Assembly: GCA_028291515.1 (NCBI GenBank)
Contig: JAQGHU010000063.1
Span: 124,001-188,000, forward strand
Direction: 5' to 3'
Length of the DNA stretch: 64,000 bases
From: Schlesneria sp.
GTDB lineage: Bacteria; Planctomycetota; Planctomycetia; Planctomycetales; Planctomycetaceae
The notes beneath the pieces were generated by a model. That model was given only the letters and a program-made list of their open reading frames with translations, did not search any database and had not been told where the DNA came from. A program made the translations under genes and the position numbers. Below, piece after piece: positions 40,590 to 53,334 of the stretch (position 1 is its first letter; each line of letters opens with the position of its first letter).

Positions 40590-41639
40590 TCAGGCAGCAC
40601 GCTGCTGTGGCATCTTGTCGGTGGATTGTCCCACTTCGCTGACGAAATTTTCCACGCCTTTCGCCAGATGGAACTGGTTGTTCCCACCTGCATTCGCCCC
40701 CACTCCTGGATTTCTCCACAGACACGGAATGGTATCCATGGCGGCCGCGAAATAGCTGGGGAACAACGGCACCACCGCGTCTGGGTTCTTGCGGCGATAT
40801 TCCGCGAGCTTGGCTTCCAGTTCGAAGTGAGGCGACTTGGGGAACCGGTGATGCGGACCGTGCACGAACAGTTCGAAGTTAAAGTAGGAACAGAGGCGTG
40901 TAATCCAGTTATTTCCAATGATTGTGCGGGTGCCGAGGATCGGATCGGTGCTGGCCATCCCCAAATGCTCAGTAAATTTGCGGAAGCCATTGAAAGCCGC
41001 AGCGATTGGCATCGGCATCAGCCACATGGGATCGAAGCGACTCCAGTCGATTTGACCGGTCAGCGTGAGCGTGACCAGCGTCACCGCTACGGCACCCCAA
41101 ACTGCTGCCATCGCCAGATATTCACGCCCGAGTGTCTTTCTCGCTTGTGCACTCAATGGCGACCGCTTGGAGAAGTAGATGCGACCGTAAACAATCGGAT
41201 TGGCCAATACCGCCCCGAAGAGATCGAACAGAACGAACGCGCGTCGGAATGCCAACGATCGACGAGGGCTCGAATACGGCCACAGTTCGAAGTCATCCGA
41301 CGTATTGAGATACGCATGATGTCGGATATGGGTCTCGCGATAAGCGCTGTAGGGAATTCCGAGGAACGTCCCGACGATTCGTCCGAACCAGATATTGGCG
41401 GTTCGCGATTTCCCCATCGTCTGATGGACCGCTTCATGGAAGGAACCGGCGACGCAGAACCAGGCATAACCCAATGAAACCGCCCAGGCCGATCTGGCCA
41501 ACAGACTATCTCCGCCCAAGCCCATCACGAACCCGACATAGCCGAGGAGAGCGACGGCAGGGAATAGCAGGAACCGAGGCCACAGCGACTCTTCGCCAAG
41601 GGCTTCAAATTCTTCGGCGGTGAATTCAGTCTTGGACAT
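40590..41639 (-). CDS. Membrane fatty acid desaturase-family protein
   Basis: The protein is 349 residues from MSKTEFTAEE (41639), with a strong site agggaggg 6 nt upstream; a longer frame reaches 41669. Three histidine boxes of the membrane di-iron desaturase/hydroxylase family are seen: SFHEAVHQ (HxxxH), ETHIRHHAY (HxxHH) and HGPHHRF (HxxHH). Hydrophobic segments flank them. Such enzymes use O2 to desaturate or hydroxylate acyl chains on lipids, CoA or ACP. It starts 30 bp after the condensation-like gene on the same strand and forms an operon with it. The nearby ACP and ligase suggest an ACP-bound substrate (inference). Confidence 0.85.
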   Translation of the reverse strand: MSKTEFTAEEFEALGEESLWPRFLLFPAVALLGYVGFVMGLGGDSLLARSAWAVSLGYAWFCVAGSFHEAVHQTMGKSRTANIWFGRIVGTFLGIPYSAYRETHIRHHAYLNTSDDFELWPYSSPRRSLAFRRAFVLFDLFGAVLANPIVYGRIYFSKRSPLSAQARKTLGREYLAMAAVWGAVAVTLVTLTLTGQIDWSRFDPMWLMPMPIAAAFNGFRKFTEHLGMASTDPILGTRTIIGNNWITRLCSYFNFELFVHGPHHRFPKSPHFELEAKLAEYRRKNPDAVVPLFPSYFAAAMDTIPCLWRNPGVGANAGGNNQFHLAKGVENFVSEVGQSTDKMPQQRAA

Positions 41640-41669
41640 TGTCCCTCCCTGGACCAGACATGGAGCCAA

Positions 41670-43100
41670 TCACGCTGCTCGTCGTTCTTCGGCAATATCC
41701 GCGGGAATCAATTGTTTCAATTTCGTCACGAAGATATCTGCCAGTTGTTCTGCTTGCTCTTTTGTGAAACTCAACGGATCGCAGTGCATGTTGACGTACA
41801 GGTTACCGGCGTAAGTGCCGACTGAGGTTGACAGTCGCGTATTGGGGCGCACCGGAACAGCACCGGTCAGCACATCCAACGTCACATTTCCCGCCACACA
41901 ACGGCCCTGCTTGAGAGGAAACCGAGCCGTAAATTGCCGACGGATGTCTCCCACATTGGTCAGGATGACTGAGGTGAAGCAGCGGTTCATCCGCAACAGA
42001 CACCACAGCAAACCCGGGATCTTAAGCATATATTTCAGGCCAATGGCAACAAACCGACCCTGCTGCTGGTTCACGATTGCGGACGTTTGTCGGTGTATAT
42101 CGGCAAGCAAATCGTCCGGCTGATTACAATCGCTGGAACGGCGAGTCAAAAACATATAGCTGACGATATTTGCAGCCGGCATCTGATCGTGCAAAGGAGT
42201 TCGCAGGCTGGTTGGCATTCCAATCCGCAACCATTGATTATCCCGGTTCTTTCCGTTCTGAAGATTCCAGGTGCGAATCGTCTGGAACATCTCAAGCAAG
42301 TACAGATCGTTCAGCTCCACGGATTTTCGTGCCGCAACGACCTTCAGCTGCTGCAATGTATGCCGATCGATCATTCGGCTGATGATCGCAGGGAATTCCA
42401 ACGGAGTTCCGATGGAGTTCTTGCGTGTTGCTGCCAACGGTGCCGGTTGTCGGCGTAGCAGCTTCATCAAACGCTTGCTGAGCATCATCGGGCAACTCAC
42501 CGTCTTCGGCGGTGCTTCGGATTCGACATGGGAATAGTTGGTGCGCGCAAGCAACCGTTCGAAGCAGACAGGTTCAATCTCAGGCAGTTCCGCTCCTTCG
42601 GGCGCGGTTTTCAGGCCGTAGCACGCCAGTAAATCCCCGATGAATTGAACACCACCCAGTCCATCTGTGCAGGCATGGTGAAACTGAAAAACCAGTTCCG
42701 CGACAGTCGGACGTCGATCGACCCAGACACGGAGACCAATCTCTGTCGCGAGATCAATTTTCTCTTGCTCGGGCAACTTCCGCGGCTCTCCGTGCTCTTC
42801 CCAGGCAACTTGCGGAGTTGGCGATGTGACTGGAATCCAGCACAAGCCCTTTCCACGGACTTGGGCGACATGGCTCATCAGCAACGGATGGCGTTTCAGC
42901 GCGAAGTCAACAGATTGCTCAAAAGCCTCGCGGTTCAGATTACCGTTCAGCTTCAGGATCAACACAAACGACATGGGATAGCTGTTTGTGTCGTCTTGAA
43001 CCATGTATTGTTCGAAGGGCGACAGAGGCAAAGGAAACAACCCCTGCGTCGCATCGGACGAAATTGCAGATTGTGGCAGTTGATCAGCGAATCCATTCAT
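41670..43100 (-). CDS. Stand-alone condensation-domain-like acyltransferase
   Basis: The protein has 476 residues. The motif FHHACTDGLGGVQFIGDLLA contains HHxxxDG, the catalytic signature shared by NRPS condensation domains, wax-ester synthases and related CoA/carrier-dependent acyltransferases. The N-terminus (PLPLSPFEQYMVQDD) fits the first conserved block of such proteins, and ILTNVGDIRRQF and YAGNLYVNMHCD fit the C-terminal half. It probably transfers an acyl group from a carrier to an amine or alcohol. It is upstream of and cotranscribed with the desaturase. It has no carrier or adenylation domain of its own, so partners must come from elsewhere, for example the ACP at 49357. Confidence 0.8.
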   Translation of the reverse strand: MNGFADQLPQSAISSDATQGLFPLPLSPFEQYMVQDDTNSYPMSFVLILKLNGNLNREAFEQSVDFALKRHPLLMSHVAQVRGKGLCWIPVTSPTPQVAWEEHGEPRKLPEQEKIDLATEIGLRVWVDRRPTVAELVFQFHHACTDGLGGVQFIGDLLACYGLKTAPEGAELPEIEPVCFERLLARTNYSHVESEAPPKTVSCPMMLSKRLMKLLRRQPAPLAATRKNSIGTPLEFPAIISRMIDRHTLQQLKVVAARKSVELNDLYLLEMFQTIRTWNLQNGKNRDNQWLRIGMPTSLRTPLHDQMPAANIVSYMFLTRRSSDCNQPDDLLADIHRQTSAIVNQQQGRFVAIGLKYMLKIPGLLWCLLRMNRCFTSVILTNVGDIRRQFTARFPLKQGRCVAGNVTLDVLTGAVPVRPNTRLSTSVGTYAGNLYVNMHCDPLSFTKEQAEQLADIFVTKLKQLIPADIAEERRAA

Positions 43101-43356: not shown

Positions 43357-46008
43357 TCATTTCTGGGGAACGATGCGTTCTTCCTGCAGTTCTTCCGCAT
43401 GATTCACCAGGACCATTCCCGGTTTTGGATCGATGCGGTAGGAAATCTCTTTACCCATTGGCAGCGTGTAGTACTGCACCTCTGCATCGCTGCGGCGGCG
43501 CCAGGTGAGTGCGTAGGGAACGCGATACTCGTCGAACCCACCGGGAGCGAGTGTTCGTGGCTTGCTCCAATCGGTGTACGGCCCTTTTACTTCGTAGGTC
43601 ACAGATTCAACGGAGTCATTCGACACCATGACACCGGGCAGTTGATACTGCACGACGATGTGCTTCTTGACCCAGTCCAATCCATCCATTCGCAGTGGAA
43701 CCCCATTCATCACCACGTCATGCACTGCGTCTGGCTTCACGCCTTCCAGCAGTTGAGCGGCGGAGCGAGCCTTCAGAACAGCAGCTACAAACTTTTCTTC
43801 CTCGATCGTCTTGATCTCGGCGTCGTAGCCTGGAGCGAACGACCATTTGGACAGAATCTTGAAATCGCCAACTTCGGCAAACTTCGGTCCGCGGCGAACG
43901 AATCCGTTCTTGCGAACGTATGGGGCGTAATCGCGAGTAATGCTCAGATCAAGCTCACCAACAGGAGTCCACTTTGTCTGCCCCTTACGTCGCATCGAAA
44001 TGTTCAGTGGGACCGAGGTCAGCGACAAGGTCAACGGATTGCCAGGTGGCTGTTCCAGCAACTTGGGTCCGATCGAAGGAGCCGGGTCGAGCAAGTGGAT
44101 TGGATCACGCAACAGGAAGTCGACGTTCGTTTCCAGATCTTCGCCATATTTCTTCAGGTCAGGAATCATTTCCTGCAGGAACTCGCGGTCAGCAAGAGCG
44201 TGATATTCTTTCGGGGTGAAGTCGAAGACGTTGAACCGATTCACTCCTCCAGTCATGATCAACTGGCTCCAGGCGGGCACAACGGTTTCTGCAACGTCGA
44301 TTTCCAGCCCGGTCTTGATCATGGGAGGAAACTCGGTCGGTGCGGGATACGTTTTCATTTTGAAGTCTTTGGGAATCTGACCCAAAGTCCCCAGGATCAC
44401 ACCGGAAACAATCGTAATCCCATCATTGTCGATGATCAGTTCTTCAGGATACGTTTTCATGCGTGGTTGCCAAATCGGCATTGCGATCTGACCGACGCAG
44501 GTGATTCGATTGAAGATCACTTCGTTCAGCTTCTTTTCGAAGTTCTGAATCATGTTCGGAACGCTATTCATCACTTGGCGTTCGAACTCGGACTTCTTGT
44601 TGTAGATCCCGTCAACCAGTCCATCCGAGACTTTGCCATTCAAGAAAGGCAAACCGCGAACGTGCACGTTATTGGGTTGCGTCACGTACCAGTTATCTGC
44701 CGGAATCTGGAAGTCCATTCCGGTCAGGTTCAGTTGAACCTTGCGATCGATGACAGTCGGGCGGCATTCGATGGTCAACCAAACCGGAGCCCGATGCCCG
44801 ATCACGACATTCATCGAGCCGGCAGTTGCAGACAGCAGCAGCTTGCCATTGAGCTGCGAGTTGGAAACGGTCATCGTCAGATTGCGCAGACCAACCTGCA
44901 TCACTAACCGATTCGGTGCCATGGGGATAATTCGCAGCCGTTCGACATGACCGCTATAGTGCAAGCCTTGCAGCGCCACGTCGATCGGCAGGAAGCCACC
45001 AACCTTGGCACTTTGATAGACTCCACCGACATAGCCTGTGACAGGCTTGGTCGCCAACTTCTCAGGAGCCGAGAAACAGAGAGCCTCAAGCACGTCTTTG
45101 CAGACGCGGAAACGAACAGAGCGAGGCATTTCGGCCCCGGGAACGAAGGGCAATTCGGACTCGTGACCGTTGTTGTAACCCTTGGGTTCAACCCAAGCCA
45201 GATCTTGCTTTGGTTCTTGGCTGGGATCGAGCAACCAGTCGGTCAGCGCGGTTTGCGTGAAGACCACGTTGCTCAGGTCATGGGCTCGCTTACTTACTTC
45301 CGTAAAATGAGCCTTTCCGCCAGCGGCATTCACCGCGGCGACCATATCTTTCGCGATGTGAGGTGAAACGAGTGGATCGCTGGCCGCGTGAAAAACCCAC
45401 GTTGGAATCCCGGCAACTTTCGGTGCGTCGGCCGTGTCGGCCATCGCACTCACAGGGACCAGGGCCGCCCATCGATCTCGTGTTCGTGATGCGACGGTCC
45501 ATGCGCCGCTGCCACCCATGGAAAGCCCGACCAGGCATTCACGCTTCTTGTCGACGCTGTAATCATTCTCGACAGCGTCCAGCATTTTCAAAGCTCGCTC
45601 TGAGTCTTCAGGCTGATCGGTCCAGCCACCCAGTACGCGACTTTGAGTGTCTTCGCACTGTGGGAACACGACCAGGAATGGATACTCTTCCAATCGCAGT
45701 CGGATCGATGGAGCCATTCCCGAGACGAGTTGTGATCGTCCGTCGGTCCCACGATTACAGGCCCCGTGCAAAAACAGAATGACGGGCCATTTTTTATCGG
45801 CGTTATAGTTTGCCGGAACGAACACCACATACTTGTGGTCCCCGCTCGCATCTGTAAGCACCCGATTGACAAATTCGCCTTGAGTGGCAGACTGTCCCAC
45901 CGTAGCCGCAGTTGGCGTAACCTGGGCCCGAACTTGCCCGGAGACAACCAGACACCCCAGAACGGCAAGTAGCAGCGATCGAGACCGCAAGCCGAGCGTG
46001 ACGGCCAT
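43357..46008 (-). CDS. Secreted alpha/beta-hydrolase esterase fused to a large unrecognised domain
   Basis: The protein is 883 residues from the ATG at 46008, with a strong site aggaggaa 5 nt upstream; a longer frame to 46065 exists. After a signal peptide (SLLLAVLGCLVVSGQVRA), residues about 45-265 form an alpha/beta-hydrolase of the PHB-depolymerase/esterase type: VILFLHGACNRG, LVGLSMGGSGAW (nucleophile Ser), HAASDPLV (Asp) and SKRAHDLSN (His). The remaining 600 or so residues match no family I recognise and look all-beta (LRIIPMAPNRLVMQVGLRNL, VWLTIECRPTVIDRKVQLNL). The combination suggests an exported hydrolase with a large binding or anchoring part. Confidence 0.8.
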   Translation of the reverse strand: MAVTLGLRSRSLLLAVLGCLVVSGQVRAQVTPTAATVGQSATQGEFVNRVLTDASGDHKYVVFVPANYNADKKWPVILFLHGACNRGTDGRSQLVSGMAPSIRLRLEEYPFLVVFPQCEDTQSRVLGGWTDQPEDSERALKMLDAVENDYSVDKKRECLVGLSMGGSGAWTVASRTRDRWAALVPVSAMADTADAPKVAGIPTWVFHAASDPLVSPHIAKDMVAAVNAAGGKAHFTEVSKRAHDLSNVVFTQTALTDWLLDPSQEPKQDLAWVEPKGYNNGHESELPFVPGAEMPRSVRFRVCKDVLEALCFSAPEKLATKPVTGYVGGVYQSAKVGGFLPIDVALQGLHYSGHVERLRIIPMAPNRLVMQVGLRNLTMTVSNSQLNGKLLLSATAGSMNVVIGHRAPVWLTIECRPTVIDRKVQLNLTGMDFQIPADNWYVTQPNNVHVRGLPFLNGKVSDGLVDGIYNKKSEFERQVMNSVPNMIQNFEKKLNEVIFNRITCVGQIAMPIWQPRMKTYPEELIIDNDGITIVSGVILGTLGQIPKDFKMKTYPAPTEFPPMIKTGLEIDVAETVVPAWSQLIMTGGVNRFNVFDFTPKEYHALADREFLQEMIPDLKKYGEDLETNVDFLLRDPIHLLDPAPSIGPKLLEQPPGNPLTLSLTSVPLNISMRRKGQTKWTPVGELDLSITRDYAPYVRKNGFVRRGPKFAEVGDFKILSKWSFAPGYDAEIKTIEEEKFVAAVLKARSAAQLLEGVKPDAVHDVVMNGVPLRMDGLDWVKKHIVVQYQLPGVMVSNDSVESVTYEVKGPYTDWSKPRTLAPGGFDEYRVPYALTWRRRSDAEVQYYTLPMGKEISYRIDPKPGMVLVNHAEELQEERIVPQK

Positions 46009-49356: not shown

Positions 49357-49614
49357 ATGGCCAACTCAACCAACGACAAAATCCTCGTATTCCTGATCGA
49401 AAGCACGGGAGAGACAAACCTGCAATCGGACACGGATCTGCTGGCATCGGGTCTGCTGGATTCGTTAACGATGATGGATCTGGTGGTCTTTATTGAGATG
49501 GAATTCCAGCAGCGAATTGCGGTGGATGATATGCGTCCGGAACTGTTCCGGACTGTCGGAACGATCTCACAACTTGTCGAGCGAATTGCGTTAGCGCCGT
49601 CGCAAGCCGCTTGA
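49357..49614 (+). CDS. Acyl carrier protein
   Basis: The protein has 85 residues. The phosphopantetheine attachment Ser is in LLASGLLDSLTMMDLVVFIE (the DSL motif, about residue 36). The rest fits a four-helix ACP/PCP fold (MRPELFRTVGTISQLVERI). The leader has the site aaggtgg about 8 nt before the ATG. It is not the housekeeping acpP, which normally lies among fatty acid genes; its place 40 bp after an acyl-AMP ligase indicates a dedicated carrier. No phosphopantetheinyl transferase is in the window, so a general one must act on it. Confidence 0.88.
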   Translation: MANSTNDKILVFLIESTGETNLQSDTDLLASGLLDSLTMMDLVVFIEMEFQQRIAVDDMRPELFRTVGTISQLVERIALAPSQAA

Positions 49615-49720: not shown

Positions 49721-50644
49721 ATGTGGACATACCTCAAAGAACGCTTCTCGCGGGTTTACTATCCGACGAAGCCAGATCAGATACCGCTCACCGAAGTGGG
49801 GTGGAGCAATCTGATTTACCTGGCAGACAATCGTGCTCATCGAGACCCGACGATGGTCTGGGGAACCACAGTCGAACTCGAAGCCATGGATGAGTTTCTG
49901 GCAGCTCAATCACGCAAATCGAGCGCGATGATTTCGATCGTCCACGTCCTGATTAAAGCCGTCGGTCAATCGCTGCGTGAGCATCCCGAGTTGAACCGCC
50001 GCGTCGTCGGACACAAGATCTATCCTTATGAAGGCGTCAGCATTGTCGTCCCCATTCGACGACCGTCCGATGGAATTGTGGACGTCGTCTTTTTTCGAGA
50101 TACAGCGGCATTGCAACTGACAGATGTTGCTGCACGCATGTGGGAAGAAACTCGCAACCGCGCCTTGATCGTCGCCAAAGAACGCCAACTGCAACAGGCC
50201 AGTCCACGAGACAAATGGCGGAAAAAGGTCATTACCAACTGGCAACTTCGAATCATCAGGCGAGCCGTCAGTTTTAGCTTCTGGATTACGAATAACTTTC
50301 GTTTGCCCTCCTGGTCGCCTTGGGGCAAAGAGATGAATGGCGCGAATGCCTTTGTGAATTTTCTGGGCTTCCCCGGCGCGCCTCCGATGATGTCCTATAA
50401 GCCCAGCAGCTTGCCCACCAATTCATTTGGCGTCAGCGTCACGATGGGTGCCGCTGAGCAAAAGCCGGTCGTGCACGATGGCCAAATCGTCATCCGCAAG
50501 GTCGCACCGATCTTCGTTCGAGTCGACCATCGACTCGTCAACGGTCATCAAACCGGGAAATTCATCGCCACATTACGATCGTACTTGTCGAATCCAGCCC
50601 GCCTGGTGGAATCAAAACAAGATGATCTCGCTGCGGCCGCATAG
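49721..50644 (+). CDS. Lipoyl-less E2-type (2-oxoacid dehydrogenase-like) acyltransferase
   Basis: The protein has 307 residues. It matches the catalytic domain of dihydrolipoyl acyltransferases (E2): SMISIVHVLIKAVGQSLREHPELNR, YEGVSIVVPIRRPSDGIVDVVF, then NSFGVSVTMG and the catalytic block FVRVDHRLVNGHQTGKF. Ordinary E2 proteins carry N-terminal lipoyl and E1/E3-binding domains, which are absent, and the canonical DHRxxDG reads DHRLVNG here (Asp to Asn). CoA- or carrier-dependent transfer to a small acceptor is therefore more likely than a role in a dehydrogenase complex. It sits between ACP and oxygenase in the same operon-like run. Confidence 0.78.
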   Translation: MWTYLKERFSRVYYPTKPDQIPLTEVGWSNLIYLADNRAHRDPTMVWGTTVELEAMDEFLAAQSRKSSAMISIVHVLIKAVGQSLREHPELNRRVVGHKIYPYEGVSIVVPIRRPSDGIVDVVFFRDTAALQLTDVAARMWEETRNRALIVAKERQLQQASPRDKWRKKVITNWQLRIIRRAVSFSFWITNNFRLPSWSPWGKEMNGANAFVNFLGFPGAPPMMSYKPSSLPTNSFGVSVTMGAAEQKPVVHDGQIVIRKVAPIFVRVDHRLVNGHQTGKFIATLRSYLSNPARLVESKQDDLAAAA

Positions 50645-51750: not shown

Positions 51751-53334
51751 ATGTCGTTCGATTTCGTCGAGCGACCCGCGCACCTATCGCATGGACCGGA
51801 CCTGAGAATGCCAGAGCCTTTGTCACCGTTGGACTATTTGCAACGAATCCTGACGGCCCCTGTTTACGATGTGGCGATTGAATCTCCGTTAGAACTCGCA
51901 CCGAAGCTGACACAGCGACTCGGCAACCGCATCTGGTTGAAGCGCGAAGACTGTCAGCCCGTGTTCAGCTTTAAGCTGCGTGGTGCCTATAACAAGATGG
52001 CTCGGCTGTCCGCAGAGGAACTCGCACGGGGAGTCATCTGCGCGTCCGCAGGTAATCACGCGCAAGGAGTCGCACTGAGTGCAGAGCGCCTGGGTTGTCG
52101 GGCCGTCATCGTGATGCCAGTAACGACTCCCAAGCTGAAGATCGACGCCGTGCGATCATTTCGAGGCGAAGTTATCCTGCATGGAGACAGCTATTCCGAT
52201 GCCTACGCTCACGCCAGCGAACTGGCAGCTTCGCACAACTACACCTTTGTCCATCCCTTCGACGATCCAGACGTCATCGCGGGGCAGGGGACTGTTGGCA
52301 TGGAGATCCTGCGGCAGCACCAGCATCCCATCCACGCCATCTTTGTCGCCATCGGCGGCGGGGGATTGATCTCCGGAGTGGCGGCCTACGTGAAAACAGT
52401 CAGGCCCGACATTCGGATCATCGGAGTTCAGATGACCGATTCCGACGCCATGATCCGTTCAGTAAAGGCGGGACGCAGAGTCGCGTTACATGATGTCGGA
52501 CTGTTTTCCGACGGGACCGCCGTGAAATTAGTCGGTGAAGAAACTTTCCGTCTGGTTCAAGATCTGGTTGACGATTTTGTCACGGTCGATACCGACGCCG
52601 TCTGCGCCGCGATTAAAGATGTGTTTGAGGATACGAGAAGTATCCTTGAACCCGCAGGAGCAATGGGGGTCGCAGCGATCAAGCAATATGTCGCGTGCAA
52701 CGGGACTCAAGACCAGTCCCTGGTCGCAATCACTTGCGGAGCCAACATGAATTTTGACCGGCTCCGCTTCGTGGCGGAACGAGCCGAAGTCGGTGAGGAA
52801 CGCGAAGCGTTGTTTGCGGTCACGATTCCCGAACAACGTGGAAGCTTCCGCAGGCTTTGCGAAACCATCGGTTCTCGCAGTGTGACAGAATTTAACTATC
52901 GGATCTCGGACGAGCGAGAAGCGCACGTCTTTGTGGGGCTCGCCACAACAAACCGCGGAGAAGCCGCGACGATCGCCGACACGTTTGCCGAGCAAGGCTT
53001 CGCTGCTGTCAACCTGACTGACGATGAACTCTCGAAGCTTCATATTCGCCACATCGTCGGCGGACGGAGCGGACTGGCGGGTGACGAAAGGCTCTATCGG
53101 TTCGAGTTTCCAGAGCGGCCGGGCGCATTGATGCGGTTTCTCTCCAGCATGCACCCGGACTGGAATATCAGCCTGTTTCACTATCGCAATCAAGGGGCCG
53201 ACTTCGGTCGCGTCCTGATCGGAATCCAAATCCCCAGTGACGAGAAACAGACTTTCCAGGAATTCGTGGAAAGTTTGGGGTATCCCTGGGTCGACGAAAC
53301 GGACAACCCGGCATACCGGTTGTTTTTGCGATAG
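51751..53334 (+). CDS. ilvA: Threonine ammonia-lyase, biosynthetic type
   Basis: The protein has 527 residues. This PLP enzyme turns threonine into 2-oxobutyrate. The PLP Lys is in PVFSFKLRGAYNKM, with SAGNHAQGVALSA and the phosphate-binding IGGGGLISGVAAY. The C-terminal half (about 345-527) carries two ACT-like regulatory domains (EQRGSFRRLCETIGSR, FEFPERPGALMRFLSS), as in the isoleucine-sensitive biosynthetic form. The start could be the second ATG (MPEPLSPLDYLQRIL, 51808), which aligns better with other IlvA proteins. It may be a housekeeping isoleucine gene that happens to follow the cluster, or supply 2-oxobutyrate to it. Confidence 0.9.
   Translation: MSFDFVERPAHLSHGPDLRMPEPLSPLDYLQRILTAPVYDVAIESPLELAPKLTQRLGNRIWLKREDCQPVFSFKLRGAYNKMARLSAEELARGVICASAGNHAQGVALSAERLGCRAVIVMPVTTPKLKIDAVRSFRGEVILHGDSYSDAYAHASELAASHNYTFVHPFDDPDVIAGQGTVGMEILRQHQHPIHAIFVAIGGGGLISGVAAYVKTVRPDIRIIGVQMTDSDAMIRSVKAGRRVALHDVGLFSDGTAVKLVGEETFRLVQDLVDDFVTVDTDAVCAAIKDVFEDTRSILEPAGAMGVAAIKQYVACNGTQDQSLVAITCGANMNFDRLRFVAERAEVGEEREALFAVTIPEQRGSFRRLCETIGSRSVTEFNYRISDEREAHVFVGLATTNRGEAATIADTFAEQGFAAVNLTDDELSKLHIRHIVGGRSGLAGDERLYRFEFPERPGALMRFLSSMHPDWNISLFHYRNQGADFGRVLIGIQIPSDEKQTFQEFVESLGYPWVDETDNPAYRLFLR

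Follow-up and report, generated by a model that had tools for sequence, protein, structure and literature searches.

A 64,000-nucleotide window of a Schlesneria sp. contig encodes a free-standing catalytic protein of the type found in the E2 components of 2-oxoacid dehydrogenase complexes, and a discrete acyl carrier protein (ACP) stands beside it; this observation is confirmed. We describe here the domain makeup, clade, predicted fold, conserved gene set, and residue pattern of this protein, which belongs to a real, conserved, and divergent family whose fold and reaction type are already known. On balance, we favor a reading in which it is an E2-fold acyltransferase that has departed from the 2-oxoacid dehydrogenase complexes and works with the discrete ACP. 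Its most likely role is acyl-ACP-dependent acyl transfer to an acceptor, and the product of the pathway is probably a lipid or a small acylated metabolite.

TABLE 1 Features of the E2-like locus in the window and of related loci elsewhere (locus prefix given for the latter)
Feature	Location	Strand	Remarks
E2-like stand-alone acyltransferase, 307 aa	49721..50644	+	PF00198; without lipoyl or E3-binding domain
Basic, aromatic-rich region, residues 146-205	50156..50335	+	Longer than in E2s; mostly helical (model)
Asn213 codon	50357..50359	+	MAFFT column of the E2 transition-state Ser/Thr (E. coli AceF S551)
DHRLVNG block, residues 269-275	50525..50545	+	D269-H270-R271 invariant (18/18)
Discrete ACP, 85 aa, net charge -8	49357..49614	+	PP-binding; phosphopantetheine serine S36 in LLDSL
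AMP-forming acyl ligase, 528 aa	47730..49316	+	Directly 5' of ACP; FYHAFG motif
TauD/TfdA Fe(II)/2-oxoglutarate oxygenase, 320 aa	50731..51693	+	H107-x-E109...H304, R313
SAM methyltransferase, 300 aa	46428..47330	-	Divergent neighbor
Esterase-like alpha/beta-hydrolase protein, 902 aa	43357..46065	-	Linked in three Schlesneria-type loci; peripheral
Small alpha/beta-hydrolase-like protein	L024:8531-9259, L025:6754-7620, L026:11609-12475, L027:12165-12902
Second lipoyl-less stand-alone PF00198 group	L065:6632-7444, L067:8677-9732, L068:709-1653, L069:9921-10754, L070:1427-2551, L071:259-1122		Distant Planctomycetota

An E2 catalytic core without carrier domains

The E2-like gene reads open from its ATG to its stop codon, and it is not a chance frame, since its orthologs in sister genomes (94, 69, 58, and 43 to 48% identity) keep the same ligase and ACP neighbors. 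A first-pass annotation, made from the nucleotide sequence and its translations, had described an E2 catalytic fold without a lipoyl or subunit-binding domain. Pfam searches bear this description out: PF00198 (2-oxoacid_dh) is the sole match of the protein, at 69.8 bits against a cut-off of 23, and PF00198 alone was matched in all 14 aligned family members. A longer, divergent central part of the protein splits the match in two. Biotin_lipoyl and E3_binding domains were present in the full-length E2s tested, including one from the window genome. Against the NCBIfam E2 equivalogs, the E2-like protein scored at best 40 bits (cut-off, 449), and a search with PF00302, the chloramphenicol acetyltransferase (CAT) family, gave no match at E values of up to 1.

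An AlphaFold2 model of the monomer, built from 14 homologs, has a mean pLDDT of 77.5 and a pTM of 0.80. The top solved structures that match it are all E2 cores, to which VIA-align aligns the model over about 200 residues with Z scores of 19 to 22.7 and rmsd values of 2.3 to 3.0 Å. CAT has the same fold and is a stand-alone acyltransferase as well, but it aligns with a Z score of about 18, its Pfam family is not matched, and it occupies a long separate branch of our tree; the comparison with E2 and CAT that the first-pass annotation had suggested thus comes out on the side of the E2 cores (Z about 22 versus about 18). OdhA of Corynebacterium (8p5v) was also among the fold-search matches. Like the protein described here, the E2 domain of the actinomycetotal OdhA/KGD enzymes has no lipoyl domain of its own, but it is fused to E1 and works inside a dehydrogenase complex. 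Residues 146 to 205 of the E2-like protein carry a net charge of +5 to +10 and many aromatics in all 14 homologs, and one might guess that this region contacts a membrane or a carrier.

A separate clade in the Planctomycetota

Maximum-likelihood analysis of 39 proteins places all 18 members of the E2-like family in one clade (support, 100/99) and the lipoylated E2s on a separate branch (95/81). The first-pass annotation had looked to clustering with complex E2s, or to lipoyl domains in the homologs of sister genomes, as signs that would count against a repurposed enzyme. The clade stands apart from these E2s, and none of the sister homologs carries a lipoyl domain. Two conserved peptides, when searched against 84,980 GTDB species genomes, recovered 13 relatives, all of them in Planctomycetota records, and, given that these peptide patterns restrict the reach of the scan, the family may also occur outside the phylum. 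Further members are found in a second genus, g42, which belongs to the same family as the genus of the window.

Six of the seven other stand-alone PF00198 proteins sampled, which come from distant Planctomycetota, form a third group that falls near the E2-like family with weak support (Table 1). These lipoyl-less proteins keep the Ser/Thr and DHRxxDG motifs, and their genes lie in other surroundings, for example beside genes for protein kinases or for a type II/IV secretion ATPase. The window genome itself has three more PF00198 loci, with open frames of 421 to 459 aa, and the one that was scanned has lipoyl and E3-binding domains. A search of one literature collection for stand-alone E2-type enzymes associated with ACPs gave no relevant paper.

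A conserved ligase, ACP, and E2-like trio

The E2-like gene had been reported to have an ACP gene and an oxygenase gene as neighbors, and no E1 or E3 genes; this is as described, and the gene lies between the two. The AMP-forming ligase, the methyltransferase, and the likely replacement of Ser/Thr by Asn213 were absent from that account. The genes for the ligase, ACP, and E2-like protein are mutually adjacent in nine Schlesneria-type loci and in the six g42 loci read, and they lie within a few kilobases of one another in two more distant genomes (G035 and G016); the trio is kept from 94% down to about 30% identity. One short contig (L040) has the E2-like gene with neither ligase nor ACP in 10 kb, and another (L042) has the E2-like gene and an ACP with no recognizable ligase.

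The phosphopantetheine serine of the ACP is kept in 10 of 10 aligned ACPs. An alignment of the ligase to linear gramicidin synthetase shows that FYHAFG replaces the FDxS motif of amino-acid-activating domains, in which the Asp binds the alpha-amino group; without this Asp, the substrate of the ligase is likelier to be a non-amino acid. The oxygenase has At3g21360 and 9yut as its closest solved relatives. Its gene is present in 7 of the 15 genomes belonging to the genus of the window and in 5 of the 8 belonging to g42; for the methyltransferase gene the figures are 8 of 15 and 5 of 8, and every genome with either gene is positive for the E2-like gene. Pooled over the two genera, TauD is present in 12 of 15 E2-like-positive genomes versus 0 of 8 negative ones (nominal P = 3e-4), and the methyltransferase is present in 13 of 15 versus 0 of 8 (nominal P = 9e-5), where both values ignore the ancestry that the two genera share and that renders the counts non-independent. 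In four genomes (G001, G002, G005, and G006) the methyltransferase lies on another contig, yet it co-occurs with the E2-like gene. Both TauD and the methyltransferase are missing from three genomes that have the trio (G280, G035, and G016), TauD is missing from G008, and G004 is fragmentary. Because some trio genomes lack them, these two genes are not obligatory: the trio is the core of the gene set, on which TauD and the methyltransferase depend as accessories.

Several other genes adjoin the set. In four Schlesneria genomes, the gene directly 5' of the ligase encodes a small alpha/beta-hydrolase-like protein with a signal-peptide-like start, to which no Pfam family matched above cut-off. In the window, an open frame of 502 codons (43399-44907, +) runs opposite the 902-aa esterase-like gene and is probably an artifact of base composition. 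In g42, a lysylphosphatidylglycerol-synthase-like gene (PF09924) lies directly 3' of the E2-like gene (L060:10315-11646 and L061:10105-11445), with genes upstream for a TPP decarboxylase, a YciA-type thioesterase, and an FAD-NAD(P)-binding protein. In one genome (G400, contig C17; L064:9293-10144, -), the E2-like gene is interrupted by an in-frame deletion of about 1.46 kb, which fuses E2-like residues 1 to about 165 to the last ~118 residues of its PF09924 (MprF-C-type) neighbor. This fusion has no catalytic His, and the ligase, ACP, TauD, and methyltransferase are still present; the junction overlaps by about 12 bp, and an assembly error is possible.

Some candidate parts of the pathway, and correspondence to known gene clusters, were rejected. 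The gene at 41670-43100 (-), which adjoins a fatty acid desaturase gene (40590-41669, -), encodes a condensation/WS-DGAT-type acyltransferase with an intact HHACTDG motif, and close homologs of it occur in two genomes (G010 and G013) that have no E2-like gene. IlvA (51751-53334) does not lie 3' of TauD in G011 and scores far over the cut-off as a biosynthetic threonine ammonia-lyase; its role is most likely in isoleucine biosynthesis. For the stieleriacine/N-acyl tyrosine clusters, NAS, ThiF, nitroreductase, and methyltransferase genes are named in the paper that describes them, and a term search of it gave no hit for ligase, dioxygenase, or dihydrolipo- (PMC12479983). No OlsH or OlsI gene for ornithine lipids is found among the recognized neighbors; the ACP alone scores with a model from that pathway, and does so weakly (29.5 bits against the ornithine-lipid ACP model, whose cut-off is 130).

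Catalytic residues

The DHRLVNG block that the first-pass annotation had read in place of DHRxxDG is indeed present, but the weight that it placed on the change from Asp to Asn cannot be sustained. Position 274 is Asn in 14, His in 1, and Asp in 3 of the 18 family members, and it is Asp in all 19 relatives sampled. The E2p of Azotobacter vinelandii (1EAA and 1DPB/C/D) has a natural Asn at this site, where it is rarer than Asp (PMC8421416), and in the PDB titles of 1DPB/C/D a part in its catalytic mechanism is assigned to Ser558, His610, and Asn614. Since this working E2p has Asn, the replacement by itself is no sign of new chemistry. Unlike the E2-like protein, the A. vinelandii enzyme carries Ser558 and belongs to a pyruvate dehydrogenase complex.

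Judged by the MAFFT alignment, the replacement of the usual Ser/Thr by Asn213 is the more distinctive of the two. S551 of E. coli E2p stabilizes the tetrahedral intermediate (PMC8421416). MAFFT places Asn213 in the S551 column in 18 of 18 family members, and this column holds Ser or Thr in 19 of 19 relatives. A profile alignment with hhalign differs, in that the Ser falls opposite T190, which is helical in the AlphaFold2 model. The model places residue 213 in a strand, in keeping with the FTIS motif of E2s, which likewise lies on a strand. With the MAFFT alignment and the modeled strand in its favor and the hhalign alignment at variance, Asn213 is the likely equivalent of the E2 transition-state Ser/Thr.

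Taken with the E2 catalytic domains of AceF, SucB, and BCKDH, the E2-like protein has in common the predicted fold, the D-H-R sequence with its catalytic His, and the C-terminal signature. It differs from them in having neither lipoyl nor E3-binding domains, a clade of its own, ACP and ligase neighbors, Asn213 in place of Ser/Thr by MAFFT, a longer basic middle region, and a position 274 relaxed to N, H, or D.

Proposed function and alternatives

The conserved trio fits an acyltransferase fed by an ACP. In the scheme that we infer, the AMP ligase would adenylate a carboxylic acid, which probably has no alpha-amino group, and load it onto the ACP. The E2-like enzyme, which by analogy with its relatives is presumed to be a trimer, would then accept the acyl-phosphopantetheine arm where an E2 accepts an acyl-lipoyl arm. 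The invariant His270 would serve as general base, such that the acyl group passes to a hydroxyl, amine, or thiol nucleophile, and Asn213 would take the place of the usual Ser/Thr in stabilizing the intermediate. TauD may oxidize the ACP-bound acid before transfer, the methyltransferase may act before or after it, and in most lineages both would be tailoring enzymes of the same pathway. The E2-like proteins are basic, with pI values of 8.7 to 10.4, and the ACPs are acidic; the interface between E2p and its acidic lipoyl domain is electrostatic (PMC8421416); this match of charges is a weak argument, since acidic ACPs are the rule. The donor could also be CoA or another thioester, with the ACP feeding a different enzyme. 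As for the proposal in the first-pass annotation of a repurposed acyltransferase, its argument from Asp to Asn falls, and the separate clade, the homologs without lipoyl domains, and the conserved trio speak for it.

Two alternatives are, in our estimation, unlikely to a similar degree. One is that the E2-like protein is an amide synthase that joins an ACP-bound acyl group to an amino acid to yield an N-acyl amino acid lipid, which is then methylated and whose chain the oxygenase hydroxylates; this is a narrower version of the ACP-dependent acyltransferase that we prefer. In planctomycetes, ornithine lipids arise through an ATP-dependent N-acylation, next to which an N-methyltransferase is encoded (PMC12493201), and N-acyl tyrosines are made as well (PMC12479983). 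The co-inherited methyltransferase, the weak score of the ACP with the ornithine-lipid ACP model, and the MprF-C-type (PF09924) gene directly after the E2-like gene in five g42 genomes point the same way, but that score is far under its cut-off, no OlsH/OlsI or N-acyl amino acid synthase gene was recognized in the cluster, and in neither G280 nor the window does the PF09924 gene adjoin the E2-like gene. The OlsH/OlsI pathway resembles our locus as an amino lipid route with an adjoining methyltransferase gene; it differs in that the acyl transfer is carried out by the GH3-like OlsH and the alpha/beta-hydrolase OlsI (PMC12493201), and a term search of the same paper found no mention of dihydrolipo- or TauD. 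The acyl amino acid lipids of planctomycetes are thus precedents, and the E2-like gene set has no signature gene of those pathways.

The other is an acyl-ACP:CoA transacylase with a thiol donor and a thiol acceptor, in which phosphopantetheine stands in for lipoamide; this reading departs least from E2 chemistry. In the channel of E2 cores, CoA and the carrier arm bind at opposite ends (PMC8421416), the predicted fold is nearer to E2 than to CAT, and the adjacent ACP is a natural donor. However, AMP ligases of this superfamily are capable of direct acyl-CoA formation, which would leave a dedicated transacylase redundant, and the transition-state Ser/Thr position is, by MAFFT, unlike that of every E2 sampled.

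That the protein acts as an atypical E2 in one of the 2-oxoacid dehydrogenase complexes of the genome, with coincidental neighbors, is highly improbable, for although PF00198 membership, the E2-like predicted fold, and the precedent of lipoyl-less E2 domains that work in a complex (OdhA of Corynebacterium) would allow it, no E1 or E3 gene adjoins, the genome has three other PF00198 loci (the one examined with lipoyl and E3-binding domains), and the separate clade and conserved ligase and ACP neighbors argue against it.

Implications for Planctomycetota

Swinging-arm catalysis with lipoamide is classically illustrated by the E2 enzymes. Going beyond the ACP-dependent acyltransferase that we prefer, we offer tentatively, and with appreciably less assurance, a fuller account: an E2-fold family, so far recorded only in Planctomycetota, may have given up the lipoyl arm in favor of the phosphopantetheine of a dedicated ACP, may stabilize the intermediate with Asn in place of Ser/Thr, and may build an undescribed oxidized and methylated lipid or metabolite. 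An E2 core that has apparently moved to an ACP would show how the fold switches both carrier and chemistry. The biosynthetic genes of Planctomycetota are often unclustered and hard to mine (PMC12479983), and a recognizable set of ligase, ACP, and E2-like genes helps in mining them. This compact gene set, often joined by TauD and the methyltransferase, probably marks an undescribed planctomycete pathway to a lipid or small molecule.
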